Shown: in pieces, positions 78 to 16,518 of the stretch
Layout of the letters: the number at the start of each line of letters is the position of its first letter
Position numbering within the stretch: the first letter of the stretch is position 1
DNA from: a virus
Strand: one strand, 5' to 3'
DNA: 20,505 nt
IMG/VR virus record: IMGVR_UViG_3300000116_000325
Location: 1 to 20,505 of that record
Notes under the pieces: model-generated
The model's input: only the letters and a program-made list of their open reading frames with translations
What the model was told of the DNA's origin: nothing
Database searches by the model: none
Translations under genes and position numbers: made by a program

Positions 78-329
78 ATGAAACTAGTATATGAAACACA
101 AATCGTGATAGAGAACAAATGTGGAGGTGGCAACATCTTTGTGTTCGATGTCTCTATCGAGGAAGCACAGTCTGAAGACTACTCTCGTTTCTATAACGAG
201 ATGGACTTGCCAGACGGTGAAGATTATTGGGAATGTGTCCGTGCTGAATACCTCGTGGACGAGTGCGATTGGGCAGAATGGTTGGAGGATTGTCCAACAT
301 ACCTACATGAGGGGATAGTATATGGGTAA
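78..329 (+). CDS. hypothetical acidic protein, 83 aa
   Basis: Small acidic protein rich in Asp, Glu and Trp; I recognise no family. It starts at ATG 78 behind a good ribosome site (AAGGA, 7-base spacer) and is the first gene after the promoter at 25-53. Its last 8 bases overlap the start of the metalloprotease gene, so the two are translationally coupled. Shape and position suit an early phage accessory protein, but no function can be assigned. Confidence 0.75.
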   Translation: MKLVYETQIVIENKCGGGNIFVFDVSIEEAQSEDYSRFYNEMDLPDGEDYWECVRAEYLVDECDWAEWLEDCPTYLHEGIVYG

Positions 330-933
330 TGCACTAAAACTAAAATATCGAAAATATCTAGGTGAGTTTCATCAAAGACAAAATCGTGGTGCAAACTATA
401 CACGCGATACTGAAAAAAGAAAAACTTATCGTGCTGAATGGGCATACACCAGAAACATGGGTGGTAAAGATATGTTCGAATCTATTGAGGAAGCAGAGAA
501 GTTTGCTAAAAGAATATACAAGTCTAAGACTTGGAATAAACTTTGGGAAGAAAACTTTAGGAGTTGGGAAACTCAAAGAGTAGGAACTAGAAAACCTTCT
601 ATACTTGCGGCAGAAAGACAGTCAAAAAGACTTGGTGGATATACAGATGGTCATAGGGTTACTCTTTATAAGAGTGGTCTTTGTAAGTATACCCTACTTC
701 ATGAACTTGCGCATTGCCTCGGTCATATGCATCATGGTCGGTCATTCCGTAAAACAGTACTTACTTTGGTAGGAACCTTTCTAGGTGCAGACCACAAGAA
801 GGAACTGAAGAGATGTTTCAAAGACCAAGGTCTCAAGTATGGAGACGCAAGGAAACCAAAGACATTTGAACAATGGCAGAAGTCTTATACACATATGATG
901 TTGTTGAGACATAGACAAAGGCAAGCAAAATGA
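322..933 (+). CDS. SprT-like zinc metallopeptidase, 203 aa
   Basis: Carries the zinc-protease motif HELAH (H127, E128, H131) followed by a His-His-Gly turn (H138, G139) and a Phe at 142. This is the HExxH...HGxxF arrangement of SprT/WLM-type metallopeptidases, where the third histidine completes the zinc site. The N-terminal 90 residues are basic and aromatic with no recognised domain; the C-terminal 50 residues are also basic, which would fit a nucleic-acid-associated enzyme. SprT-family proteases cut DNA-protein crosslinks in cells; that role is only inferred here. The start at ATG 322 follows an AGGGG ribosome site and overlaps the previous gene. Its stop overlaps the next ATG (ATGA). Confidence 0.75.
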   Translation: MGNALKLKYRKYLGEFHQRQNRGANYTRDTEKRKTYRAEWAYTRNMGGKDMFESIEEAEKFAKRIYKSKTWNKLWEENFRSWETQRVGTRKPSILAAERQSKRLGGYTDGHRVTLYKSGLCKYTLLHELAHCLGHMHHGRSFRKTVLTLVGTFLGADHKKELKRCFKDQGLKYGDARKPKTFEQWQKSYTHMMLLRHRQRQAK

Positions 934-3913: not shown

Positions 3914-3943
3914 AAGGGGAGACTTTCGGGTCTCCCTTTTTTT
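3914..3943 (+). terminator. intrinsic terminator after gp32
   Basis: GGGAGAC (3917-3923) pairs with GTCTCCC (3930-3936) around a 6-base loop, followed by seven T bases at 3937-3943. The stem can extend outward through G-U and A-U pairs. It lies 4 bases after the gp32 stop and its T-run touches the end of the convergent minus-strand gene. Read from the minus strand it lacks a T-run, so it is directional. Confidence 0.92.
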
Positions 3944-5438
3944 ATCCCATACCAGGAATAAGATTACTACCATATCCTACAGGAATTCCAAATCTATCTT
4001 CTCTATTAAATGCGTCAGAAATCATACCTGAAACACCACCTCCGCTATTACTGACATTATTGGTTTGACTATTGTTTGGAGCATTGACTATTACTGGTGA
4101 ACTTCCTAACAACTGACTATTTGAGAATAAAGTACCTCTTGCTATGTCGTCTTCAATCTTTTTAAGGCGTTTCTCTTTTTTTACTCTGTCAATCTCTATC
4201 TGGTTAAGTCTATTATTTATTAATAACTTCATTTTTTCATCAGGTTCTATTCCTAATCTTTCAAACTCTTTTTTGAGTGTTTCAGTTTTACCAGGTATAC
4301 CTGCTCTTTCTAATTGTCTTTCAATGAACAAATCCCCTACACCTAACTTACCTGCATCTCTATCCTCTAGTTGCTTTCTTGACATTTGACCAAATCCGCC
4401 TGGAAGAACAGTGCCTAATGTAGCAACAGTATCTCCTAAAACATTCATAACTGGCGCACCTATTCCTTCATTAAATCCAAATAAAGTCCCTCGGAAAGCA
4501 CCCATTTCTTCCATTGCTCTATCTTGAACTTTAAATCTTGCCATTTGTTCTGCAAACAACGTATTAAACCTTGCATTGTGCTTTTCTCTAAATGTTCCAT
4601 TTTTAAGTATTGCCTCTTGCATTTCTGTTTGCTTGTCTTGAAGAAATTGATTGTTAAACATTCTTCCTAAAATACCAGATGCATTAGATATAAATTTATT
4701 TCCTTCATCATTCATTCTTGCGTTTAATGCACCTAAACCAAATTGTTCTCTAAATTTTAAAACATTAAATCTTGACTTCTGGTAAAAACTCAACTCCTCA
4801 CCATCAATCTCTTTAAACTGTTCGTTTCTCTTTTTGACCTGTTCTACTTTATCCTTTCCCATACCTACTGCTCTCATAATATTATTTAATATTGGAATGC
4901 GACCAAAGGCATCATGCATCTCCTTTTCATTTTTACCCATAATTCTTTTATTTATTTCTTCTGCCCTGTTTTGCGTTTCTTCATTACCCTTCAGTATTCG
5001 TTCTAATTTGTTCTTCATCTCTAGAATAGGTGTTTTGATTTTTAAAAGTCCATATAAAGCAAGACCTAATCCTGCAATTCCTAATAATAATAATCCAAAA
5101 AACTTCAGTGTTTTCATAGAGAAGAGTTTGAACTCCCCATCACCTTTTTTCTTATCTTTTTTCTGATTGTTGAAGAAACCAAATAATTTAGAGAACTTTC
5201 CATCATCCTTTTTATCTTTACTCTTTTTTTCGGTTTTTTCTTCGTTTTTATCACCTTCTTCAGAGTCTTTATCTTTTTCTAAACCTTTAAAATGTTTATC
5301 AAATATTTTTATTTGACTTACTAATAAAGCATTTGTTGTGTCAACCTTTTCCGCAGTTTGCTGGGTAAAAAACGCAGTTTCTCCGAGTGCCGCTTGTTGT
5401 TCTTCTTGCATCTTTTCTGTTACATCTTTTAATGCCAT
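3942..5438 (-). CDS. probable tail tape measure protein (gp29-like by position), 498 aa
   Basis: Long, mostly helical protein with one hydrophobic segment (about 111-132) after a very Lys/Asp/Glu-rich stretch (51-102), many charged helical repeats in the middle, and a Ser/Asn/Gly-rich C-terminus (about 440-475). In tailed phages the tape measure gene follows the tail chaperone pair, and this gene directly follows gp26 and its -1 frame extension. A helical, membrane-segment-bearing protein at this place fits. T4 gp29 has 590 residues; if tail length scales with the tape measure, the tail would be somewhat shorter than T4's. I cannot see sequence identity to gp29, so the call rests on position and shape. 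Start ATG 5438 has an AAGG ribosome site. A different structural protein remains possible. Confidence 0.55.
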   Translation of the reverse strand: MALKDVTEKMQEEQQAALGETAFFTQQTAEKVDTTNALLVSQIKIFDKHFKGLEKDKDSEEGDKNEEKTEKKSKDKKDDGKFSKLFGFFNNQKKDKKKGDGEFKLFSMKTLKFFGLLLLGIAGLGLALYGLLKIKTPILEMKNKLERILKGNEETQNRAEEINKRIMGKNEKEMHDAFGRIPILNNIMRAVGMGKDKVEQVKKRNEQFKEIDGEELSFYQKSRFNVLKFREQFGLGALNARMNDEGNKFISNASGILGRMFNNQFLQDKQTEMQEAILKNGTFREKHNARFNTLFAEQMARFKVQDRAMEEMGAFRGTLFGFNEGIGAPVMNVLGDTVATLGTVLPGGFGQMSRKQLEDRDAGKLGVGDLFIERQLERAGIPGKTETLKKEFERLGIEPDEKMKLLINNRLNQIEIDRVKKEKRLKKIEDDIARGTLFSNSQLLGSSPVIVNAPNNSQTNNVSNSGGGVSGMISDAFNREDRFGIPVGYGSNLIPGMG

Positions 5439-5461: not shown

Positions 5462-5635
5462 TTATTTATTCTTTTCTGCCTCTTCCTCAAGATGTGTTTC
5501 CAACAATGTCAAATAAACTTCTCTTTCCCAAGGCATCATATGATTGATATCAGTAAGAGAATAATTGAAATGTTGCATCAACGCGAAATTGGTTTGATAA
5601 TGATTAATCAAACTATCATGTGAGAGGCATACTAA
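5462..5635 (-). CDS. -1 frame extension of gp26, gp51-like tail chaperone segment, 57 codons
   Basis: An open frame on the minus strand from the end of gp26 to a TAA at 5464-5462. It is exactly -1 relative to gp26 and stays open from the T-tract onward. The only ATG starts that would give a free protein are at 5578 (38 aa) and two codons farther in, and none has a ribosome site. The product contains FNYSLTDINHMMPWEREVYL (from residue 4 of the 38-aa form) and an acidic end. A DI-xM-PxERE-Y motif of this kind is typical of small tail-assembly chaperone C-termini. Expression as a gp26 fusion of 292 residues by frameshift is the preferred reading; independent translation from ATG 5578 is the alternative. 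Confidence 0.65.
   Translation of the reverse strand, partial: LVCLSHDSLINHYQTNFALMQHFNYSLTDINHMMPWEREVYLTLLETHLEEEAEKNK
5463..5470 (-). promoter_or_regulatory. near-consensus late promoter ahead of the tape measure gene
   Basis: Minus-strand AATAAATA (one mismatch to TATAAATA) ends 24 bases before the ATG at 5438 and overlaps the stop of the gp26 extension. Spacing suits a late start with a short leader containing the AAGG ribosome site. With one mismatch in AT-rich DNA, chance is not excluded. Confidence 0.4.
5592..5613 (-). other. stem-loop downstream of the slippery site
   Basis: On the minus strand GTTTGAT (5613-5607) pairs with ATCAAAC (5598-5592) around an 8-base loop. It begins 21 bases after the T-tract slip site, farther than the usual 5-9 bases for a frameshift stimulator, so its role is doubtful. 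Confidence 0.35.
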
Positions 5636-6339
5636 AAAAAATCTGAGAGACCCTCCAATGTTAATTTGTTTTCTCTATTACAAGCAGAACAAGTCCACTC
5701 AATCTTTTTCTGTAGTGAAGGAGTACTATCAATAAACTCTGTAACTTTCTCAAATTGTTGAGTTGTCATAGAGTCAATAAACCCTGTTATTTCGTCTAAA
5801 CTCCACTCCGTTATTCTTTCGTCTGGTGTGTTTATAGAAACTATACAATCCTTTACCATAATCATACCGAACTCTGAACCTGTCATACCTTCTTTATAAT
5901 TATTAATAAATGCTAGATAAGTTGGATATCTTAATTCTATACTTATTTCTTCGTTTAATTCTATAGTGGGACTTTTTGGATTATCTTGAACAATTTCCAC
6001 ACTCGTCAAGTCAACAACAACTTCTGTACTTGCTTCACAATCTTCCTGTTGACATTTTGCGTTAAAGTTTGAGGTTTCTCCTACAGACCTTGCGCGTATT
6101 TGTGTAAACATATATTCAACATCATATGTTGTTAATGTTTTTGGATTTACTGTATCATATACACACGCAACAATAGTATCTATCATTGCTCTCATAGAAA
6201 GTTTTTCATCTTTAGACTCAAATGCTTGTAAAAGTATTTTCTCTTCTTTTACAAAATAAGGTCTGAAAGTTATTTTCTTTTTTGAAGAGGGTATCTCAAG
6301 TTCATATCTGATTGATTCATTTAATTTAGGTAGTGCCAT
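5632..6339 (-). CDS. 26: gp26-like baseplate hub / tail assembly chaperone (T4_baseplate family), 235 aa
   Basis: Resembles T4 gp26 and the T4_baseplate family of marine T4-like phages: an N-terminal beta-rich part with ITFRPYFVKEEKILLQA (23-39), a middle KDCIVSINTPDERITEW (about 163-179), and a C-terminal zinc-ribbon-like end. Two cysteine pairs (C96/C101 and C217/C220) probably bind one metal ion. The protein ends LEGLSDFF, where FF is encoded by the T8 slip site. T4 gp26 belongs to the hub assembly pathway. Position just before the tape measure, together with the -1 extension, makes it look like the short form of a lambda G/GT chaperone pair. A GGAG lies 14 bases before ATG 6339, which is longer than usual. 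Confidence 0.75.
   Translation of the reverse strand: MALPKLNESIRYELEIPSSKKKITFRPYFVKEEKILLQAFESKDEKLSMRAMIDTIVACVYDTVNPKTLTTYDVEYMFTQIRARSVGETSNFNAKCQQEDCEASTEVVVDLTSVEIVQDNPKSPTIELNEEISIELRYPTYLAFINNYKEGMTGSEFGMIMVKDCIVSINTPDERITEWSLDEITGFIDSMTTQQFEKVTEFIDSTPSLQKKIEWTCSACNRENKLTLEGLSDFF
5635..5641 (-). other. candidate -1 ribosomal frameshift slippery heptamer
   Basis: Minus-strand codons at the end of gp26 are GAT TTT TTT TAG. The heptamer T TTT TTT (5641-5635), part of a T8 run, fits X XXY YYZ. A one-base backward slip replaces the TAG stop with TTA and continues for 57 codons to 5462. The T8 run could also permit polymerase slippage with the same outcome. Confidence 0.7.
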
Positions 6340-6371: not shown

Positions 6372-7076
6372 TTAAAAGATTTTTCTTAGTATTCCACCAA
6401 GTAGTGCTTCGCCTAGTTGACTTCCTGGTGTTTTAAAGTTTTTGCTTTCCCAATTTTTGTAAGATAGTTGAACAGTAACTTCCATCAATCCACCCTCACC
6501 AGTTGCGAGAGGTAATACATTCATTGATGTAGGAAAAGCATTTATAAGTTTACATTCATATACAACATCTTCTGGTAATATAGCATTGAGGTCGAACTCA
6601 CCTTGTGCGAAATCTAGGGGTCCAAGTCTCGGTAATCTTCCCCTAATACTTGATGGTATCTTACCCGCATCAAATAACTTCTTTCTTGCAATAGGAAATG
6701 CTACCCCTTTTTTGAGTTGTTGTATTACTACAGTTTTGGTGTAATCACTATGATAACCTATAGTTTGTGTTTCTTGATTAAACGCAAGGTTTTGCCATTC
6801 TTCAAAATAAGACCTTGTTTTATAATCATTCAAAATATAAAAAGACATAGAAACATCTGAAACTAAATATCCATATGCAACCTTTTCTACTTCAGTTCCT
6901 GAACGAGAATCAGTCGTTGTTATTTGTCTCCCTGGAAGGTCACATCTAGTACAAAGTATTGTCACTTCTCTTGCGTTATCATTAATAGGAGGTAACTGAA
7001 CCCTGAACATATTGCCCATTGCCATACCGCCACCAGATGATACCTCTGAAAGGAAATCGTCTATACTTACTGCCAT
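6372..7076 (-). CDS. tube-fold baseplate protein (gp19/gp54-like), 234 aa
   Basis: Pattern of the T4 gp19 tail-tube fold as found in tube and baseplate-tube initiator proteins: DLPGRQITTTDSRSG (about 46-60), VAYGYLVSDVSMSFYILNDYK (66-86) and FEEWQNLAF (91-99), the latter matching the F..W..LA loop of tube proteins. C-terminal strands end in LSYKNWESKNF. With 234 residues it is longer than a plain tube subunit (about 160) and shorter than T4 gp54 (320). Because gp48 lies just across the divergent promoter region, a gp54-like role capping the baseplate and starting the tube is the best guess. It lies 3 bases downstream of the previous stop with a TAGG ribosome site. A hub adaptor is also possible. 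Confidence 0.6.
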   Translation of the reverse strand: MAVSIDDFLSEVSSGGGMAMGNMFRVQLPPINDNAREVTILCTRCDLPGRQITTTDSRSGTEVEKVAYGYLVSDVSMSFYILNDYKTRSYFEEWQNLAFNQETQTIGYHSDYTKTVVIQQLKKGVAFPIARKKLFDAGKIPSSIRGRLPRLGPLDFAQGEFDLNAILPEDVVYECKLINAFPTSMNVLPLATGEGGLMEVTVQLSYKNWESKNFKTPGSQLGEALLGGILRKIF

Positions 7077-10177: not shown

Positions 10178-11611
10178 ATGCAACAAAATAATCAAAAGGC
10201 ACAATATACAATAACATCTGCTGTCATTCACGCGGATAGGTTTACTATTACGAGTAGCAAAAGTGAAACGAGACTTGCAGACTTTGAAGTTTTTAGTGAT
10301 ATAGTAGAACTTGTCATCTATGAATCTCTTGACAAATTATACCTTACAGGACAAGTTTCTATTATAGATAAACAAGGACTTTTTTCCACTATACAATTTC
10401 AAGGAACCGAAAAAATAACCTTTGCGATTAGTACTGCAGATGTAAATGATACTCCAATTATATTCAATAAAACTTTTATAATGAGTGAGATTATAAGTCA
10501 AACTAAACATAAATCGGGAAAGTCAAGTCTTTTTGTATTTAATCTTATAGACGAACATGGATTTCTTGGTCGTGTTTCTAAGATAAGTAAATCCTATAAT
10601 GGAAGTCTTGAAAGAATTATAAAGAATATCTTACAAAATGAACTTGGTAGAACAGTTGATATTGCCTATACGGGTGCTAAGAGTGGTGATGAAGAGTTTA
10701 GTATTCAAGGAGATATCACATGTATCATTCCAAATATGACTCCAATCACTGCCATAAATTGGTTGTGTAATAGAATAACAACAGATAATGGTACTCCTTA
10801 CTTTGCGTATTCAACACTCAATTTACCTAATCAAAAAGGTGAGAGTGACGAATCACAATTAGATGATGAAGATAAAGCAAAAGGTAATCTTATCAGAATT
10901 GGTAACTTAGATACTATGTTGACTCAAGAAGCATTCAACAATATACCGTTTGTATACAACCCCAACTCTAGAAGTGGTTTACGGTCAAATGTTATTGACC
11001 AACTTTTTAAAATTAAAAACATAAGTTTTAATAGAACATCAAATACATTAAAATTATTAGAACTTGGAGCAGTTTCATCAGAATACTCAAACACAAATTT
11101 AGGAACAGGTGAAGTATTCACAACAAAACATGTATTGAGTGACCAACTTAGAAATCTATCAAGTAATGCTATTATAGGAAAAAACGATGAAACCATACAG
11201 AATGTTTTTGATGAAGAATTATTATTGAAAGGTTCTAGGGTTGAAACCTATTCTGCAAAAAATTATCATACAATAACTTCTACAGGAACATATGGTAATT
11301 TGAAAAGTTATCATGATGAGACAGACGAGAATAAATTTAAAGTGAAAATCTCTTCAACCGCAATTAAAAATGTTCTTCATAAAAATAGTATAACTATTGT
11401 TGTAGAAGGGGCATCACTTGCTATTGGTAGAGTTACTGTTGGAGACATTATAAATATTGTTGTTGTAAGTGATAATGTAGATGACGAAGGTAATGGTGTA
11501 CCTGATATGAAAAATTCAGGAAAACATTTAATATATGACCTCAAGCATACCTTTTCAGGTGAGATACATAATGCTACATTAACCCTTTGTAAATTGGAGT
11601 CTATTCAGTAA
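10178..11611 (+). CDS. 27: gp27-like baseplate hub protein, 477 aa
   Basis: Matches the pattern of T4 gp27-type hub proteins of marine myophages: an N-terminal tube-like domain with LVIYESLDKLYLTGQVSIID (about 46-65), a KSYNGSLERIIKNILQNELG helix (about 138-157), then IIPNMTPITAINWLCNRI (about 184-201), the hub-domain signature also present in gpD/VgrG-type hubs. T4 gp27 has 391 residues and forms the trimer that carries gp5. The gene directly before a gp5-like OB protein agrees. There is no ribosome site before ATG 10178; the upstream AT-rich stretch resembles but does not match a late promoter. The stop overlaps the next start as TAATG. Confidence 0.75.
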   Translation: MQQNNQKAQYTITSAVIHADRFTITSSKSETRLADFEVFSDIVELVIYESLDKLYLTGQVSIIDKQGLFSTIQFQGTEKITFAISTADVNDTPIIFNKTFIMSEIISQTKHKSGKSSLFVFNLIDEHGFLGRVSKISKSYNGSLERIIKNILQNELGRTVDIAYTGAKSGDEEFSIQGDITCIIPNMTPITAINWLCNRITTDNGTPYFAYSTLNLPNQKGESDESQLDDEDKAKGNLIRIGNLDTMLTQEAFNNIPFVYNPNSRSGLRSNVIDQLFKIKNISFNRTSNTLKLLELGAVSSEYSNTNLGTGEVFTTKHVLSDQLRNLSSNAIIGKNDETIQNVFDEELLLKGSRVETYSAKNYHTITSTGTYGNLKSYHDETDENKFKVKISSTAIKNVLHKNSITIVVEGASLAIGRVTVGDIINIVVVSDNVDDEGNGVPDMKNSGKHLIYDLKHTFSGEIHNATLTLCKLESIQ

Positions 11612-12423
11612 TGTTAGAATACTATGGTGATAGCACTCGTTGGTTCATAGCAACAGTTGTAAACTCAACTCCTCCAACAGGATATGAAGGACGAGTAAAG
11701 ATACGCATACACGGATTACATAGTTCATCTACACAAGATATTCCAGAAGACCATTTACCTTGGGCACAATGTGTTCTTCCAACTACCGAAGGTGGAGTAT
11801 CGGGTATTGGTAAAATACCTCGTGTTCTGCCCAGTGCATTAGTGTTCGGAATATTTATGGATGGTAAGAACTCACAGACACCTATCGTGTTGGGTTCGTT
11901 TCCTAAAATAGAAAGTCCTTCCGAGATACAAAAACTAACAAAACAAAGTAGTGTTGAACAAGGTGCGGTTCTTGCAAGTACATTGGATATAAAGAATATA
12001 ATACTTGATGTTCCAGATGCAACAATTAAAAATAATAGGATTGAGTTTTGTTTACAGTTTTTTCTTAACTTAGGATACAGTTATATTCAAGCAAAAGGTA
12101 TTACCGAAAATCTTTCACAAAAAGGAATGGTTTCAGGATTTAGGGGAGAAAATGAAAGTGGTCGATTTGGTATTGCGGAATGGTCAGGAGAAAGATTTAA
12201 AAATCTAAAAGCATTCTCTGAAACTTTCAAACTATTTACAACACAACTTGAATTTATTGCATTTGAACTAAACGGAACACAAAGGTCTGCCAATATCCGT
12301 TTATTACAGACAGATAGGTATAGTGGAGAAAAAGGTTCCTTAAATATATTTGCTAAATACTATTTGAAATTAGATTTGCTTCAATTAGAACAACTTGAAA
12401 GCAAAGGAGATTATAGTGAGTAA
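11611..12423 (+). CDS. 5: gp5-like hub protein: OB fold plus degenerate-looking tail lysozyme domain, 270 aa
   Basis: Residues about 8-98 match the T4 gp5 N-terminal OB fold: RWFIATVVNSTPPTGYEGRV (10-29), a KIRIHGLHS strand, DHLPWAQCVLPTTEGGVSGIG (48-67) and TPIVLGSFP. Residues about 145-235 match the phage tail lysozyme (Phage_lysozyme2) domain: FFLNLGYSYIQAKGITENLS (150-169), GRFGIAEWSGERFKNL (184-199) and TQLEFIAFEL (211-220). In active members the N-terminal helix carries an ESG with the catalytic Glu; here the matching place reads QKG (K171), suggesting lost or altered catalysis. There is no beta-helix needle at the C-terminus, unlike T4 gp5; that part is encoded separately at 14830. A GGAG ribosome site precedes the TAATG overlap. 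Confidence 0.8.
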   Translation: MLEYYGDSTRWFIATVVNSTPPTGYEGRVKIRIHGLHSSSTQDIPEDHLPWAQCVLPTTEGGVSGIGKIPRVLPSALVFGIFMDGKNSQTPIVLGSFPKIESPSEIQKLTKQSSVEQGAVLASTLDIKNIILDVPDATIKNNRIEFCLQFFLNLGYSYIQAKGITENLSQKGMVSGFRGENESGRFGIAEWSGERFKNLKAFSETFKLFTTQLEFIAFELNGTQRSANIRLLQTDRYSGEKGSLNIFAKYYLKLDLLQLEQLESKGDYSE

Positions 12424-14833
12424 AATAATCAATAGTTTAAATACTGAACTAAAAAGAAAGTCTGATAAACTTGCTCAAAGAACTTTGATGCCTAAAGTTA
12501 AAAAGATTAAAAATCTTGATGGCGCAATTAGATATGCGTCAGGATTGGGTGAGATTCAAGTTAATACTAATTTCAATGTTCCTACTTTTGGTGGTGCAAA
12601 CAGATTAATAGGAACTCAACTTGATAGATTAAATATTCAAACACAATCTATAATAGGAAATAACACAGACGGAGAAGTTTTTGGTGGATTTGCTAAGTCA
12701 ATTGGTAATACAGATGGTGAAGTAGGTCTTGTTAAGTTTGTGAGTACTGCAGGGTTAGATAATGTTGTTACTCCAAACTTTAAAGTATATGCTTCTGGCG
12801 CACCACAAGCAATTAGTATAGCAAGTAAAGATATAGAGAAAAAGATAAATATTCAAAAGGTAGAAATAAATACTTTTCTTGATAGTCTACCTCAAGTTCT
12901 TGGAAGACCTTCGGGTGGTTTCCTTGGTTCCATTCTCAAAGTTGCAGGTATAACAGGAGGTTTAAATGGTTTGTTACAACAGATATCTCCTCTTGCAAAT
13001 ATATCAAATCAATTAAATAATATCAAAGACCAAGTTTTAGACCAAACAGGAATAAGCGGTTTTCTTGACCAAGTTAATAGTCTGGCAGATAATGTAACAA
13101 ACTATGTTAATACTTCTCTAGATGCAGTTTCAACTTCTCTTGGAGAAGCAATCGGTAATCCTTTATCAGAATTAGATAATGCTTTAAGTATTAATATTGG
13201 AGAAGAAACTTTTAGCACTAACCTTGGTGGATTCGCGAACGATTTATTAGAAAGTGTTACTGGAGACCTTCGTTCTCGTGCAAACAATTTTATTTCAGGA
13301 GCAATACCTGATGTTGAAATAGGAGGATTAGTTAGTGGTATTGTAAGTGATGATATTACGGAAATAGTATCTTCTGTTGGTAGGATAACTCAATATGACA
13401 ATGTAGTAAGAGAAAACCTTACTTTATTTGAACCTTGGAGTGCTGTTGAAAATGCTTCATCTCCAAGGGAAGCAATTTTTCAGATAGAAACGAACGGTAA
13501 GAAGAACGGAGCAAGTGCGGCAAATATTTCTTATGTGCAAGGTTTATATGCATCAATAATATCAAAGACCGAAAATAACACTTTCAATGCAGGACTATCT
13601 TCTGTTATTGCTACAGGTTCAAGTCCTTTACTTTCTGTCAATCCATTACCCCTTTCAAAGAAGTTTAGTTATGTTTCGTCTATAGAAGAACTTGAACTAG
13701 AGATATCAAGTAGACTTGTAGTAAGTGCCGCAAGGGAAGTAAGTAGTGTTGTTATTCATGCAACAGAAACATTCACAAATAAGAATATAGGTGCAGAAGA
13801 AATAGATGCAATACAGAAAAAACTAGGTGAAGATGAAATAGGTTATCACTATGTGATTAGAAGAGACGGAAGACTTCAACGCGGAAGACCTGTTGAGAAA
13901 GAAGGAAGTCATTGTCCCACAGGCAACTACGACGAAACTTCTATAGGTATTGTAATGGTAGGGGGTATTAATCGTGCCTCTACAGAACAGTCCTTTGAAA
14001 CCTCTAGTGCTTCATTTACACGCGCACAATATAACACATTAGAACAATTCCTTCAAGTGTTTTATAATAACTTTTCTGGTGGAGAAGTATTTGGTCATAG
14101 TGATATTGAAACAGATGAACTAGACCCTTATTTTGATGTGAGTGAATATATACTATCGTTATTTGGTAAAATAAATTCTTCATCATTAGGTGTTCGTGAA
14201 ATTGAAGGTGATTTTGAACCTACTGCTCCTGAAGGTATAACTGAAGAAACAGGACTAAATGCTCCAACAACTCGTGTTCAAGTTACTCCCGAAGAATTAA
14301 ATGTTGCTCCAGACGAAGTTCCAAAGGATGTTGAAGTTGTGGTTGATAATGATTCTAAGTTTAAAGTTATATATGAACCACAAAAAAAGAACTCCAATTT
14401 ACCTGTTGACCCTGATGCTTTATTAGATGATATACCAAGTAAGTTACAGAAACTTGCGAATTATATGAAAAGAGATATAAGAGTTACAAGTGGATATCGT
14501 GACCCAGAGCATAATAGAAGGGTAGGTGGTGCAAAGGGGTCTCCACATCTAACACGAAAGGCAGTAGATATAAGTAGAAGTGATAGGGCACCAACTGAAG
14601 GAGGATGGAGATACACATCGTCCTTGATGAGTGATGCCCAAGTTGCTGATTTGGTGCAAAAAGCGTCCGAGTTGGGATTTAAAGGTATTGGAATATATAA
14701 TGATTATTTGCATCTTGATACTAGGTCGGGCAAAAAATGTTGGGCAACATCTAAAATAGTGAGAGTTTCTTCTATTCCAAGATTTGCACAGATAGCAACA
14801 GTTCTAAGAAATAATAATTGGGATAATGTATGA
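12416..14833 (+). CDS. tail-associated dual wall hydrolase: amidase plus M15-type peptidase, 805 aa
   Basis: Residues 1 to about 420 are helical and Gly/Ser/Asn-rich with no recognised domain, probably a structural anchor. About 425-600 is an amidase of the AmpD/T7-lysozyme/PGRP type: SSVVIHAT with H448, GYHYVIRRDGR (476-486), GSHCP with H499, and GHSDIETDELDPYF with H561 and D570; the likely zinc ligands are H448, H561 and D570. About 645-790 is an M15-type peptidase: VTSGYRDPEHN, SPHLTRKAVD (H711, D718) and YLHLDTR (H766), the three zinc ligands. It would cut the glycan-peptide bond and a peptide cross-bridge in the wall. GTG 12416 is preferred over TTG 12395 because AAGGAG lies 6 bases upstream; it overlaps the gp5-like gene by 8 bases. 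Confidence 0.8.
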   Translation: MSKIINSLNTELKRKSDKLAQRTLMPKVKKIKNLDGAIRYASGLGEIQVNTNFNVPTFGGANRLIGTQLDRLNIQTQSIIGNNTDGEVFGGFAKSIGNTDGEVGLVKFVSTAGLDNVVTPNFKVYASGAPQAISIASKDIEKKINIQKVEINTFLDSLPQVLGRPSGGFLGSILKVAGITGGLNGLLQQISPLANISNQLNNIKDQVLDQTGISGFLDQVNSLADNVTNYVNTSLDAVSTSLGEAIGNPLSELDNALSINIGEETFSTNLGGFANDLLESVTGDLRSRANNFISGAIPDVEIGGLVSGIVSDDITEIVSSVGRITQYDNVVRENLTLFEPWSAVENASSPREAIFQIETNGKKNGASAANISYVQGLYASIISKTENNTFNAGLSSVIATGSSPLLSVNPLPLSKKFSYVSSIEELELEISSRLVVSAAREVSSVVIHATETFTNKNIGAEEIDAIQKKLGEDEIGYHYVIRRDGRLQRGRPVEKEGSHCPTGNYDETSIGIVMVGGINRASTEQSFETSSASFTRAQYNTLEQFLQVFYNNFSGGEVFGHSDIETDELDPYFDVSEYILSLFGKINSSSLGVREIEGDFEPTAPEGITEETGLNAPTTRVQVTPEELNVAPDEVPKDVEVVVDNDSKFKVIYEPQKKNSNLPVDPDALLDDIPSKLQKLANYMKRDIRVTSGYRDPEHNRRVGGAKGSPHLTRKAVDISRSDRAPTEGGWRYTSSLMSDAQVADLVQKASELGFKGIGIYNDYLHLDTRSGKKCWATSKIVRVSSIPRFAQIATVLRNNNWDNV

Positions 14834-16518
14834 CAACTAAAAAAGACAATTATAAAGCAAGAACAGAGGAAGAGGGTTTAGGTATTGGTTCCGAACTATC
14901 TGTTGGTGTTCCTGATAATGGCATGCAAAATGCTTCGGGTGATTATCCTAAGAGAGAATATAATTTTGGTTCTTCGGTTAACAAAGCAACAGTTGGAACC
15001 AAGGTAAACAAACTCTACACAGGTGGTGGAGATATAGGTGTTCCTTTAAATATTCCAGAACAGATGCCTTCTCAGTATCCATTCAATCAAGTAGATGAAA
15101 CTCCTAGTGGACATGTCATTGAGATGGACGATACTCCAGGAGGAGAAAGAGTTCTTATAAAACATCGTAAAGGTTCTGGTGTAGAATTACGCGCAGATGG
15201 AACTGTTGTGATATCTGCTTTGAATAATAAGGTTGAGGTGACAGGGGGAGACCAAACTGTTATTATTGAAGGTCATGGTAATCTCGTATACAACGGAAAT
15301 CTTAACCTCAAAGTAAGTGGTGACTATAATGTTGAGGTTGGCGGTAACTACAATGTAGATGTTGCAGGTTATGCTCAAAAGAGAATCGGAGGATTCTATT
15401 CCAAAGCGGTTACAGGAAATGTCGCGCAAAAATACATGGGAAGTAAATCAGAGAAGATTTTAGGTAATAGTATCACTCTTAGATTAGGTGATGATGACTA
15501 TATTGTTAAAGGAACAAGAAATGATGTTACCGATGGTAATCATGAAATTTCCTCTGGTGAAAACTTACTCATTTCTGGTGAAAAAACTGCAGAGATGATA
15601 GGTAGAAAAACTTCTATTACAGGGTCAGATATAATAAATGTTCAAGGTTCTTATGGAACTATTGGTGGTGCGTTCGTTAGATTTACAGGGCAGACTTACT
15701 CAGGGGCACTTAAAAAAAGAGTTTACGGTGGTGGAGATAATTATGTCACAGGGGGAACACCAAGTGTTGATTCTGATGGTAGTGGAAATATATCAATTTC
15801 TGGTATTGACAGTGGTTCTTCAGGTGTTTTATCTTCAAGTGATTCTGATGGTGAAGGTAATGTTGCAACAACATATTCTTCAGGAGAGGACTTTGCTTCA
15901 AGTTCGGATTATGAGACTGCAATATTCCACGGAAGTCTTCATGGTGTTGCAAAGAAAGCACAAATGGCAGATAATGCAAACAAATCTATTATGGCAACAG
16001 TATCAATGAATGCGGTTTCTTTAAATCCATTATTTGCAATTGGTGGTTTGAAAGCATTACCAAAAAGTTCTTTATTATCCAACTTCAACTTAGAAGCAGA
16101 AGATGTTCTTCATGCAACTGTTGAACCCGATAATATCGCCAAAATTGCTCTAGGTAAAATACCTCAAAATGATGAAACAAGCGCACATCTAAAAATTAAC
16201 CCCATAAAAGTAGTAAGTGTTGACCCTGATGACTATGTACGAGACCTCAGTTATGGTAAAGAACATTATAATCAGACATTCTTAAAAACACCTAGAACTG
16301 CAGAAATAAGAAGTGCGTTCAGAAATAAAGAGACAAGAGAGGATGGTATTTTAGGTGCTACTCTTGTTGCGGAAGGACTGTTAAATCAGAACTATAATTC
16401 TAAGGTTCCAAGTGGGAAATTAAGTGGAAGAGTTGTTGGTAAAGAAGCAAGTTCAAAATATGGTTATACACCGATAGGTAATTCTATAGAGAATAGAGGA
16501 AAAAGGTTTAGAAAATGA
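14830..16518 (+). CDS. gp5C/VgrG-like beta-helix spike protein, 562 aa
   Basis: Residues about 91-300 form a repetitive beta-strand region starting PSGHVIEMDDTPGGERVLI (92-110), then KHRKGSGVELRADGTVVISA (111-130), followed by short V/I-x-G-rich strands. This is the pattern of the triple beta-helix needle of T4 gp5C and VgrG spikes. A Gly/Ser/Asp-rich linker follows (about 300-355), then a separate domain starting FHGSLHGVAKKAQMADNAN with an AEIRSAFRN segment and a polar end. In T4 the needle is the third part of gp5; here it is its own gene two genes after the OB protein. It overlaps its neighbours on both sides (ATGA). The needle would form the membrane-piercing tip at the hub. Confidence 0.72.
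   Translation: MTTKKDNYKARTEEEGLGIGSELSVGVPDNGMQNASGDYPKREYNFGSSVNKATVGTKVNKLYTGGGDIGVPLNIPEQMPSQYPFNQVDETPSGHVIEMDDTPGGERVLIKHRKGSGVELRADGTVVISALNNKVEVTGGDQTVIIEGHGNLVYNGNLNLKVSGDYNVEVGGNYNVDVAGYAQKRIGGFYSKAVTGNVAQKYMGSKSEKILGNSITLRLGDDDYIVKGTRNDVTDGNHEISSGENLLISGEKTAEMIGRKTSITGSDIINVQGSYGTIGGAFVRFTGQTYSGALKKRVYGGGDNYVTGGTPSVDSDGSGNISISGIDSGSSGVLSSSDSDGEGNVATTYSSGEDFASSSDYETAIFHGSLHGVAKKAQMADNANKSIMATVSMNAVSLNPLFAIGGLKALPKSSLLSNFNLEAEDVLHATVEPDNIAKIALGKIPQNDETSAHLKINPIKVVSVDPDDYVRDLSYGKEHYNQTFLKTPRTAEIRSAFRNKETREDGILGATLVAEGLLNQNYNSKVPSGKLSGRVVGKEASSKYGYTPIGNSIENRGKRFRK

Follow-up and report, generated by a model that had tools for sequence, protein, structure and literature searches.

The 20,505-base stretch of viral DNA analysed here (hereafter the window) carries on its minus strand a gp26 gene whose final codons are GAT TTT TTT TAG. 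A slippery heptamer, T TTT TTT in the zero frame, lies within a tract of eight T (T8) and directly abuts the UAG stop (Table 1). In the -1 frame, the sequence remains open for 57 codons, from a first codon at 5635-5633 to a TAA stop at 5464-5462, and its translation, LVCLSHDSLINHYQTNFALMQHFNYSLTDINHMMPWEREVYLTLLETHLEEEAEKNK, contains the motif DI-NHMM-PWERE-Y. Joined to the 235 residues of gp26, these 57 codons would give a predicted fusion of 292 residues. The initial annotation had described the gp26 end, the T8 tract, the heptamer, the -1 frame, the 57 codons and the 292 residues, all of which are confirmed from the sequence. The same applies to the chaperone-like motif and to the lack of a start of its own: the first nine extension codons of the window contain no ATG, the sole possible start being a TTG at the ninth. 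When the last 20 codons of the 24 ATG-started reading frames of at least 90 amino acids in the window are compared, some of these frames not being real genes, gp26 is the only one with six equal bases in the slip register.

Table 1. Positions of the predicted genes, signals and further features of the window
Feature	Position	Strand	Basis
gp26, putative short tail assembly chaperone (TAC-N-like), 235 aa, PF12322	5632..6339	minus	Pfam, phrog_150, AlphaFold2
Slippery heptamer T TTT TTT, zero frame, abutting the UAG stop	5635..5641	minus	sequence; conservation of T TTT TTN
T8 tract	5634..5641	minus	sole A/T run of at least 8 in the window
-1 frame extension, 57 codons plus stop, gp51 C-terminal domain (TAC-C-like)	5462..5635	minus	phrog_634, phrog_150, hhalign, pN/pS, predicted helices
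Predicted frameshift product, 292 aa (TAC-NC-like), co-linear with T4 gp51	5462..6339	minus	predicted from sequence
SD-like GGAGGG, 9 nt before the heptamer, candidate stimulator	5651..5656	minus	anti-SD pairing -9.8 kcal/mol
Hairpin, arms 5613-5607 and 5598-5592 (7 bp), candidate stimulator	5592..5613	minus	folding and covariation
Next gene, 498 aa, presumed tape measure by position	3942..5438	minus	long ORF follows in most loci
Preceding gene, tail-tube-family protein (phrog_45)	6372..7076	minus	phrog_45, E 8.3e-35
OB-fold and tail lysozyme protein	11611-12423	plus	domain match
812-aa protein with Amidase_2 and Peptidase_M15_3 domains	12395-14833	plus	overlaps the first of the three ORFs in another frame
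Weak match to the gp5 C-terminal trimerisation domain, below cut-off	14830-16518	plus	domain search

The extension is separated by 23 bases, from its TAA, from the ATG of the next gene at 5438. Among the 69 non-redundant loci whose sequence continues for 1500 nt or more past the extension, 55 have a downstream open reading frame of at least 400 amino acids, and the 498-residue protein of the window is presumed to be the tape measure on the basis of its position. The claim of the initial annotation that the extension ends just before the tape-measure gene is, in this respect, not confirmed: T4 gp29 has no similarity to the profile of the downstream ORF, and a search of 50,697 phage records with the 498-residue protein gave no match at E 0.01. 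Inspection by eye reveals one strongly hydrophobic segment in this protein, near residues 107-130.

On the plus strand of the window, at 11611-16518, a gp5-like hub lysozyme is apparently split over three adjacent ORFs; the two extra wall hydrolases within one hub-region protein look unusual. A pyrimidine dimer DNA glycosylase (Pyr_excise, E 3.4e-10) is encoded at 1101-1643, also on the plus strand, alongside structural genes. The ORF at 322-933 (plus strand) contains the motif HELAHCLGH, zinc-metalloprotease-like when judged by eye, and gives no Pfam match at E 0.001.

Family and fold of gp26 and its extension

The gp26 protein matches the Pfam family T4_baseplate (PF12322) over profile positions 3-218 of 219, with an E value of 9.5e-48 and 163.2 bits against a cut-off of 24.5, and phrog_150 (baseplate hub) with an E value of 7.6e-52. 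Its AlphaFold2 model has a mean pLDDT of 87.8 and is matched in Foldseek by 61 predicted viral proteins at E 0.001 or below, many of them named baseplate hub. Foldseek of the same model against the PDB gave no significant match (2ob9 appears at E 0.33), the PDB sequence search with the gp26 profile returned nothing meaningful, and the NCBIfam search nothing useful. VIA-align gives its two best placements on residues 1-95, namely 3fgx, an uncharacterised protein, at Z 8.0, and the tail assembly chaperone of HK97, 2ob9, at Z 7.3, whereas the third row drops to Z 2.8; best Z values of 7-8 are common in this procedure without true kinship. Taken together with the short/long architecture of the locus, these values from the predicted model support assignment as a putative tail assembly chaperone, for which the Z values alone would not suffice. 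The record of phage Meroveus already labels gp26 and gp51 as tape measure protein assembly chaperones.

The family names given by Pfam and phrog speak instead for the baseplate hub, and a 2010 review, in the part of its text that is available, describes gp26 and gp51 as hub assembly chaperones and mentions genetic support for gp26 in the hub (PMC3004832). Both points favour a reading in which gp26 and the extension are hub parts or hub assembly factors, with the frameshift producing a hub variant. This reading is regarded as improbable. The short/long architecture and the slip site match those of lambda G/GT, the HK97 tail assembly chaperone and 3fgx are the two best structural matches, and papers citing Vladimirov et al. 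2022 treat the genes, in their accessible passages, as tail assembly chaperones (PMC10885494, PMC12846349).

The extension matches phrog_634 (baseplate hub assembly catalyst, gp51) with an E value of 8.8e-24, and also positions 236-281 of 282 of phrog_150. The extensions of alignment A6 behave alike, phrog_634 being matched by 19 of 19 and phrog_150 by 18 of 19. Furthermore, the extension profile aligns with residues 206-245 of T4 gp51 (hhalign, E 2e-5), and the predicted structure consists of two long helices (pLDDT 80.7). In eight of the twelve pairs compared, pN/pS in the -1 frame is 0.08-0.22, and in the other two frames of the same eight pairs it is at least 0.87 wherever the ratio could be formed. 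Of the remaining pairs, a ninth, nearly identical, gives 0.00, and three without synonymous change are uninformative. The extension is under purifying selection as a protein in the -1 frame. The phrog_634 match, the presence in 93 of 93 IMG/VR loci and the low pN/pS indicate that it is more than a chance reading frame.

In T4, gp26 consists of the Pfam domain only, whereas gp51 carries PF12322 at residues 1-201 (E 3.9e-52) and then the extension, spanning phrog_150 positions 13-280 of 282 in one piece. The two T4 proteins are detectably related, with an E value of 2e-6 in a single comparison. Since gp51 comprises a whole gp26-like domain followed by the extension, it and the predicted frameshift product are co-linear, so that the short and the long forms are encoded in T4 as two genes. 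As regards the gp51-like segment of the initial annotation, the homology of the extension to the gp51 C-terminus stands, but the equation of gp51 with this segment does not, because T4 gp51 also possesses a full gp26-like domain.

Conservation of the slip site

Conservation was assessed in 112 loci, comprising 93 from IMG/VR, the window and 18 phage records; 103 of them are non-redundant at 90% gp26 identity. The sample is not random: the IMG/VR loci were found with gp26 and include the best 80 of 596 confirmed loci, and the phage records were hand-picked for diversity, with 21 regions of gp26-plus-extension layout out of 677 records (among the 50,697) that match gp26 at E 0.01. Phages Mosig, phiM9 and Cygsa01 were read separately, outside the 112. 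The T TTT TTN heptamer and the -1 extension occur together in 93 of 93 IMG/VR loci, one extension being ended by the contig end; the last codon of the heptamer is TTT in 67, TTC in 18, TTA in 7 and TTG in 1. The shared T-tract and -1 frame that the initial annotation had proposed to look for in alignments of related phages are thus found in every one of these loci. In the non-redundant set, window included, the heptamer is present in 102 of 103 loci; as it was also the search pattern, the informative count is that of 102 hits and 1 miss. Both heptamer and extension are likewise present in Sinorhizobium phiM9 and Pelagibacter phage Mosig.

The codon before the heptamer is GAT, AGT, AAT, TCT or GCT. 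According to pairwise placement, the spacing between the heptamer and the extension core is 8 nt in 93 of 101 heptamer loci (L048, which reaches a contig end, is left out) and 5, 11 or 14 nt in the other eight. The zero-frame stop directly follows the heptamer in 58 of the 93 IMG/VR loci and comes at least one codon later in 35. The frameshift register, more than the stop position, is held across loci. With regard to codon choice, gp26 has a GC content above 0.45 in five heptamer loci, four of which mostly use TTC for Phe but retain TTT at the slip site (TTT versus TTC counts: RL38J1 0/13, Atu_ph04 1/10, S-B68 0/7, Moby 3/7); the fifth, Ahp1 (GC 0.47), favours TTT anyway, by 6 to 3. The corresponding log10 P of -35.7 treats the loci as independent and is conditional on the residues.

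At the gp26 3' end of phages having separate genes 26 and 51, the heptamer is found in none of eight controls (T4, JQD51, Roth19, Dhakavirus CLBP2, Serratia PS2, Meroveus, G2248 and Acj133); in each of the seven apart from T4, the presence of a divergent gp51 reading frame was verified. Phage RB43, of which only gp51 was looked at, is outside these eight. Four of the controls keep the Phe-Phe pair as TTC TTT, still without the heptamer. Collectively, the 102 heptamers in 103 loci, the fixed spacing and the absence from all eight controls support the -1 frameshift, fusing gp26 to a gp51-like segment, that was originally proposed.

The length of the T run is six in 38, seven in 18 and eight in 46 of the 102 heptamer loci. 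The T8 of the window and of these 46 loci would suit a transcriptional origin of the fusion, in which RNA polymerase slips on the tract and mRNAs with one extra U encode the long protein. Six or seven T, however, are short for transcriptional slippage, and heptamers ending in TTC, TTA or TTG also occur. In addition, the SD-like and hairpin signals described below, if real, fit ribosomal slippage better, and transcriptional slippage appears very improbable. The same counts bear on the idea that a homopolymer indel, whether a sequencing error or a mark of gene decay, split a single frame. Homopolymers are error-prone in sequencing, and T4 does carry the same protein as one frame; nevertheless, the same frame relation recurs in 93 of 93 IMG/VR loci and in cultured phage records, the extension is under purifying selection, and 38 of the 102 loci have only six T. 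Given this agreement among independent records, error or decay is rejected in practice, its probability being negligible.

Alternatively, the extension could be a small gene in its own right, a gp51 fragment that is never fused and whose translation begins past the gp26 stop through re-initiation or coupling. Several records annotate an ORF of its own at this place. Within the first nine codons of the extension frame, an ATG is present in 14 of 103 loci, namely S-PM2, P-SSM4, P-SSM2, S-CAM7, S-B68, ValKK3, Moby, RL38J1, Atu_ph04, D528 and four IMG/VR loci, and any of ATG, GTG or TTG in 46 of 103. Vibrio phage D528 (L026) and Pseudomonas phage Cygsa01 (L124) have the -1 extension without the heptamer, with an ATG overlapping the gp26 stop, and have perhaps switched from frameshifting to coupled translation. 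Near-junction starts in some loci thus make separate translation possible in those lineages. The relatives that the initial annotation had named as evidence against fusion, with a ribosome site and ATG of their own or with neither tract nor the same phase, therefore exist in part, in the form of the 14 ATG-bearing loci and of D528 and Cygsa01, which lack the heptamer; neither the window nor any of its eleven nearest loci (L001-L011) has an ATG near the junction in the extension frame. Against a separate gene as the general rule, 89 of 103 loci, window included, lack such an ATG, 13 of the 14 loci that have one also hold the heptamer, and T4 encodes the fused form in one frame. Furthermore, the SD-like element lies 8-10 nt before the heptamer and farther still from starts past the stop. 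A separate gene is accordingly considered unlikely, and fusion by -1 frameshifting is the preferred reading.

In the cyanophages S-PM2, P-SSM4, P-SSM2 and S-CAM7 (L017, L018, L111 and L112), the extension is annotated as a separate gp51, called from a start shortly past the gp26 stop; the heptamer and the same register are present there as well. These annotations are probably incomplete. The suggestion that frameshifting explains why gene 51 is hard to find in marine genomes would hold for records with gp51 absent or misplaced, but has to be restricted in that many cyanophage records do annotate the extension, as a small gp51.

Candidate stimulatory elements around the heptamer

Predicted pairing with the anti-SD sequence of 16S rRNA peaks just upstream of the heptamer, with a mean of -5.87 kcal/mol versus -4.75 for synonymous permutations (z -9, n=102), the largest |z| in a scan 40-90 nt upstream being 3.5. 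An SD-like core of at least 4 nt is located within 25 nt upstream in 88 of 102 loci, as opposed to 28% of 2435 control stretches, and ends 8-10 nt before the heptamer in 75 of those 88. Taken individually, 72 of the 102 loci beat their own synonymous null. The separate-gene phages keep part of this signal (mean -4.88 vs a null of -4.18, compared with -5.97 vs -4.88 for heptamer loci), and a protein motif therefore explains some of it. From its sequence and position, the SD-like element is a candidate that possibly stimulates slippage.

Downstream of the heptamer, the folding-energy excess over 72 nt reaches z -13 (n=92, with 10 of 102 loci dropped). Three control regions in gp26 also show a smaller excess (z -4.2, -6.6 and -6.3; n=88, 92 and 92), and for this reason a localised window test is preferred. 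In this test, which dropped 9 of 102 loci, folding energies compared with a synonymous null give z -8.4, -13.1 and -12.8 for windows starting at +13, +18 and +23 (93 loci; the one from +18 extends to +49), -3.1 at +8, and values from -0.6 to +1.4 at +3 and from +28 on. The localised signal spans about +18 to +54.

A hand-named helix at about +20 to +45 has a covariation score of 0.228, reached by 0 of 500 shuffles (mean 0.178), and of at most 0.123 when slid out of register. In this helix 63.5% of cells pair, and the covariation score, the paired cells and the double-change cells all beat 500 of 500 shuffles. The helix pairs with double changes (6 vs 6.0) and the pair types (20 vs 18.6), the two measures least misled by kinship, show no excess over shuffles, and RNAalifold on 84 extension cores returns no consensus pairs. 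In a pair-by-pair synonymous test, which like alignment A3 left out 18 of 102 loci, the top rank, at about +4.2, goes to a stem formed within columns 12-20 and 29-37; as other stems reach -5.3, this test alone is weak.

Stem-loops of the dnaX type lie 5-9 nt past the heptamer, and the hairpin of the window, 21 nt past it, falls outside this spacing. A start at about 20 nt is, to our knowledge, farther than that of known stimulators, so the hairpin may rely on another geometry of pausing or may serve a further function. On folding and covariation, it is a candidate whose stimulation of slippage is possible. In the part of the open-access full text that is available, no report of the SD-like element or the hairpin at this site was found, which is weak evidence of absence; the SD-like element 8-10 nt upstream and the candidate hairpin about 20 nt downstream are possibly new. 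It is a tentative and rather doubtful proposal that the chaperone ratio in marine and related T4-like phages would be set by a conserved three-part signal, made up of the SD-like element 8-10 nt before U UUU UUN, the heptamer itself and the hairpin about 20 nt after it, the hairpin being kept by synonymous selection, and that the T4 group lost this signal when the long form became gene 51.

Interpretation and relation to known systems

The locus is most readily interpreted, with a probability of roughly 0.9, as a lambda G/GT-type tail assembly chaperone gene of a T4-like phage, expressed through -1 frameshifting. Most ribosomes would stop at UAG and produce gp26, the short chaperone. A minority would slip back by one base on U UUU UUU and read UUA GUA UGC and onwards, giving a 292-residue protein composed of gp26 and a helical gp51-type domain. 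If the two proteins work as lambda gpG/gpGT do, the part that they share would coat the tape measure, and the extension would recruit the tail tube protein. Slippage itself, its rate and the chaperone function are predicted here from the DNA.

The frameshift mechanism is not new, T4-like chaperones and poly-T signals being already in print; the phage of the window, together with its close relatives in IMG/VR, adds new members to this kind. The available part of one paper mentions poly-T slippage signals in the TAC-N genes of T4-like phages (PMC12846349), and the available part of another describes some T4-like phages with a short gene and a fusion gene in place of the frameshift (PMC10885494). 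For an abundant group of marine phages, the present reading provides an explanation of genes 26 and 51 that is clean and testable. In cyanophages, the small 'gp51' ORFs would most likely be the tail of the frameshift product, not simply separate genes, and T4 gp51 would be the same product as a gene of its own, which accounts for records with gp51 absent, misplaced or given a doubtful start. Should the SD-like and hairpin stimulators be real, the short-to-long chaperone ratio would become measurable in non-enteric hosts.

Vladimirov, Gautam and Davidson (2022; Virology 566:9-15) reportedly found that frameshifting is kept in several T4-like groups and that T4 uses genes 26 and 51; the T4-like tail assembly chaperones of that work are the same genes as those of the window's locus. 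In T4 itself, gp26 is homologous to the short form and gp51 is co-linear with the 292-residue product, but T4 lacks the heptamer and encodes the two forms by separate genes that lie on opposite strands. The slip site of lambda G/GT is G-rich, whereas that of the present locus is U UUU UUN, with a tape measure that is presumed. As described in the available part of a 2016 review (PMC5009743), a single lambda gene likewise yields a short and a long chaperone, gpG and gpGT, through -1 slippage close to its 3' end; among long-tailed phages, T4 is named there as the exception to a wide conservation of G-T frameshifting. The tail assembly chaperone locus of Vandenendeviridae and Andersonviridae (phage Adele), a different phage group, likewise shifts to the -1 frame close to the 3' end of TAC-N and shows a conserved GTTTTT motif, as stated in the accessible text of the corresponding paper (PMC12846349). 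With the E. coli dnaX signal, as presented in the part of the source available (PMC5600365), the window would share an upstream SD-like element, a heptamer and a downstream stem-loop, the first and the last being candidates here. It differs from dnaX in that its heptamer is U-rich and its candidate hairpin starts about 20 nt away.
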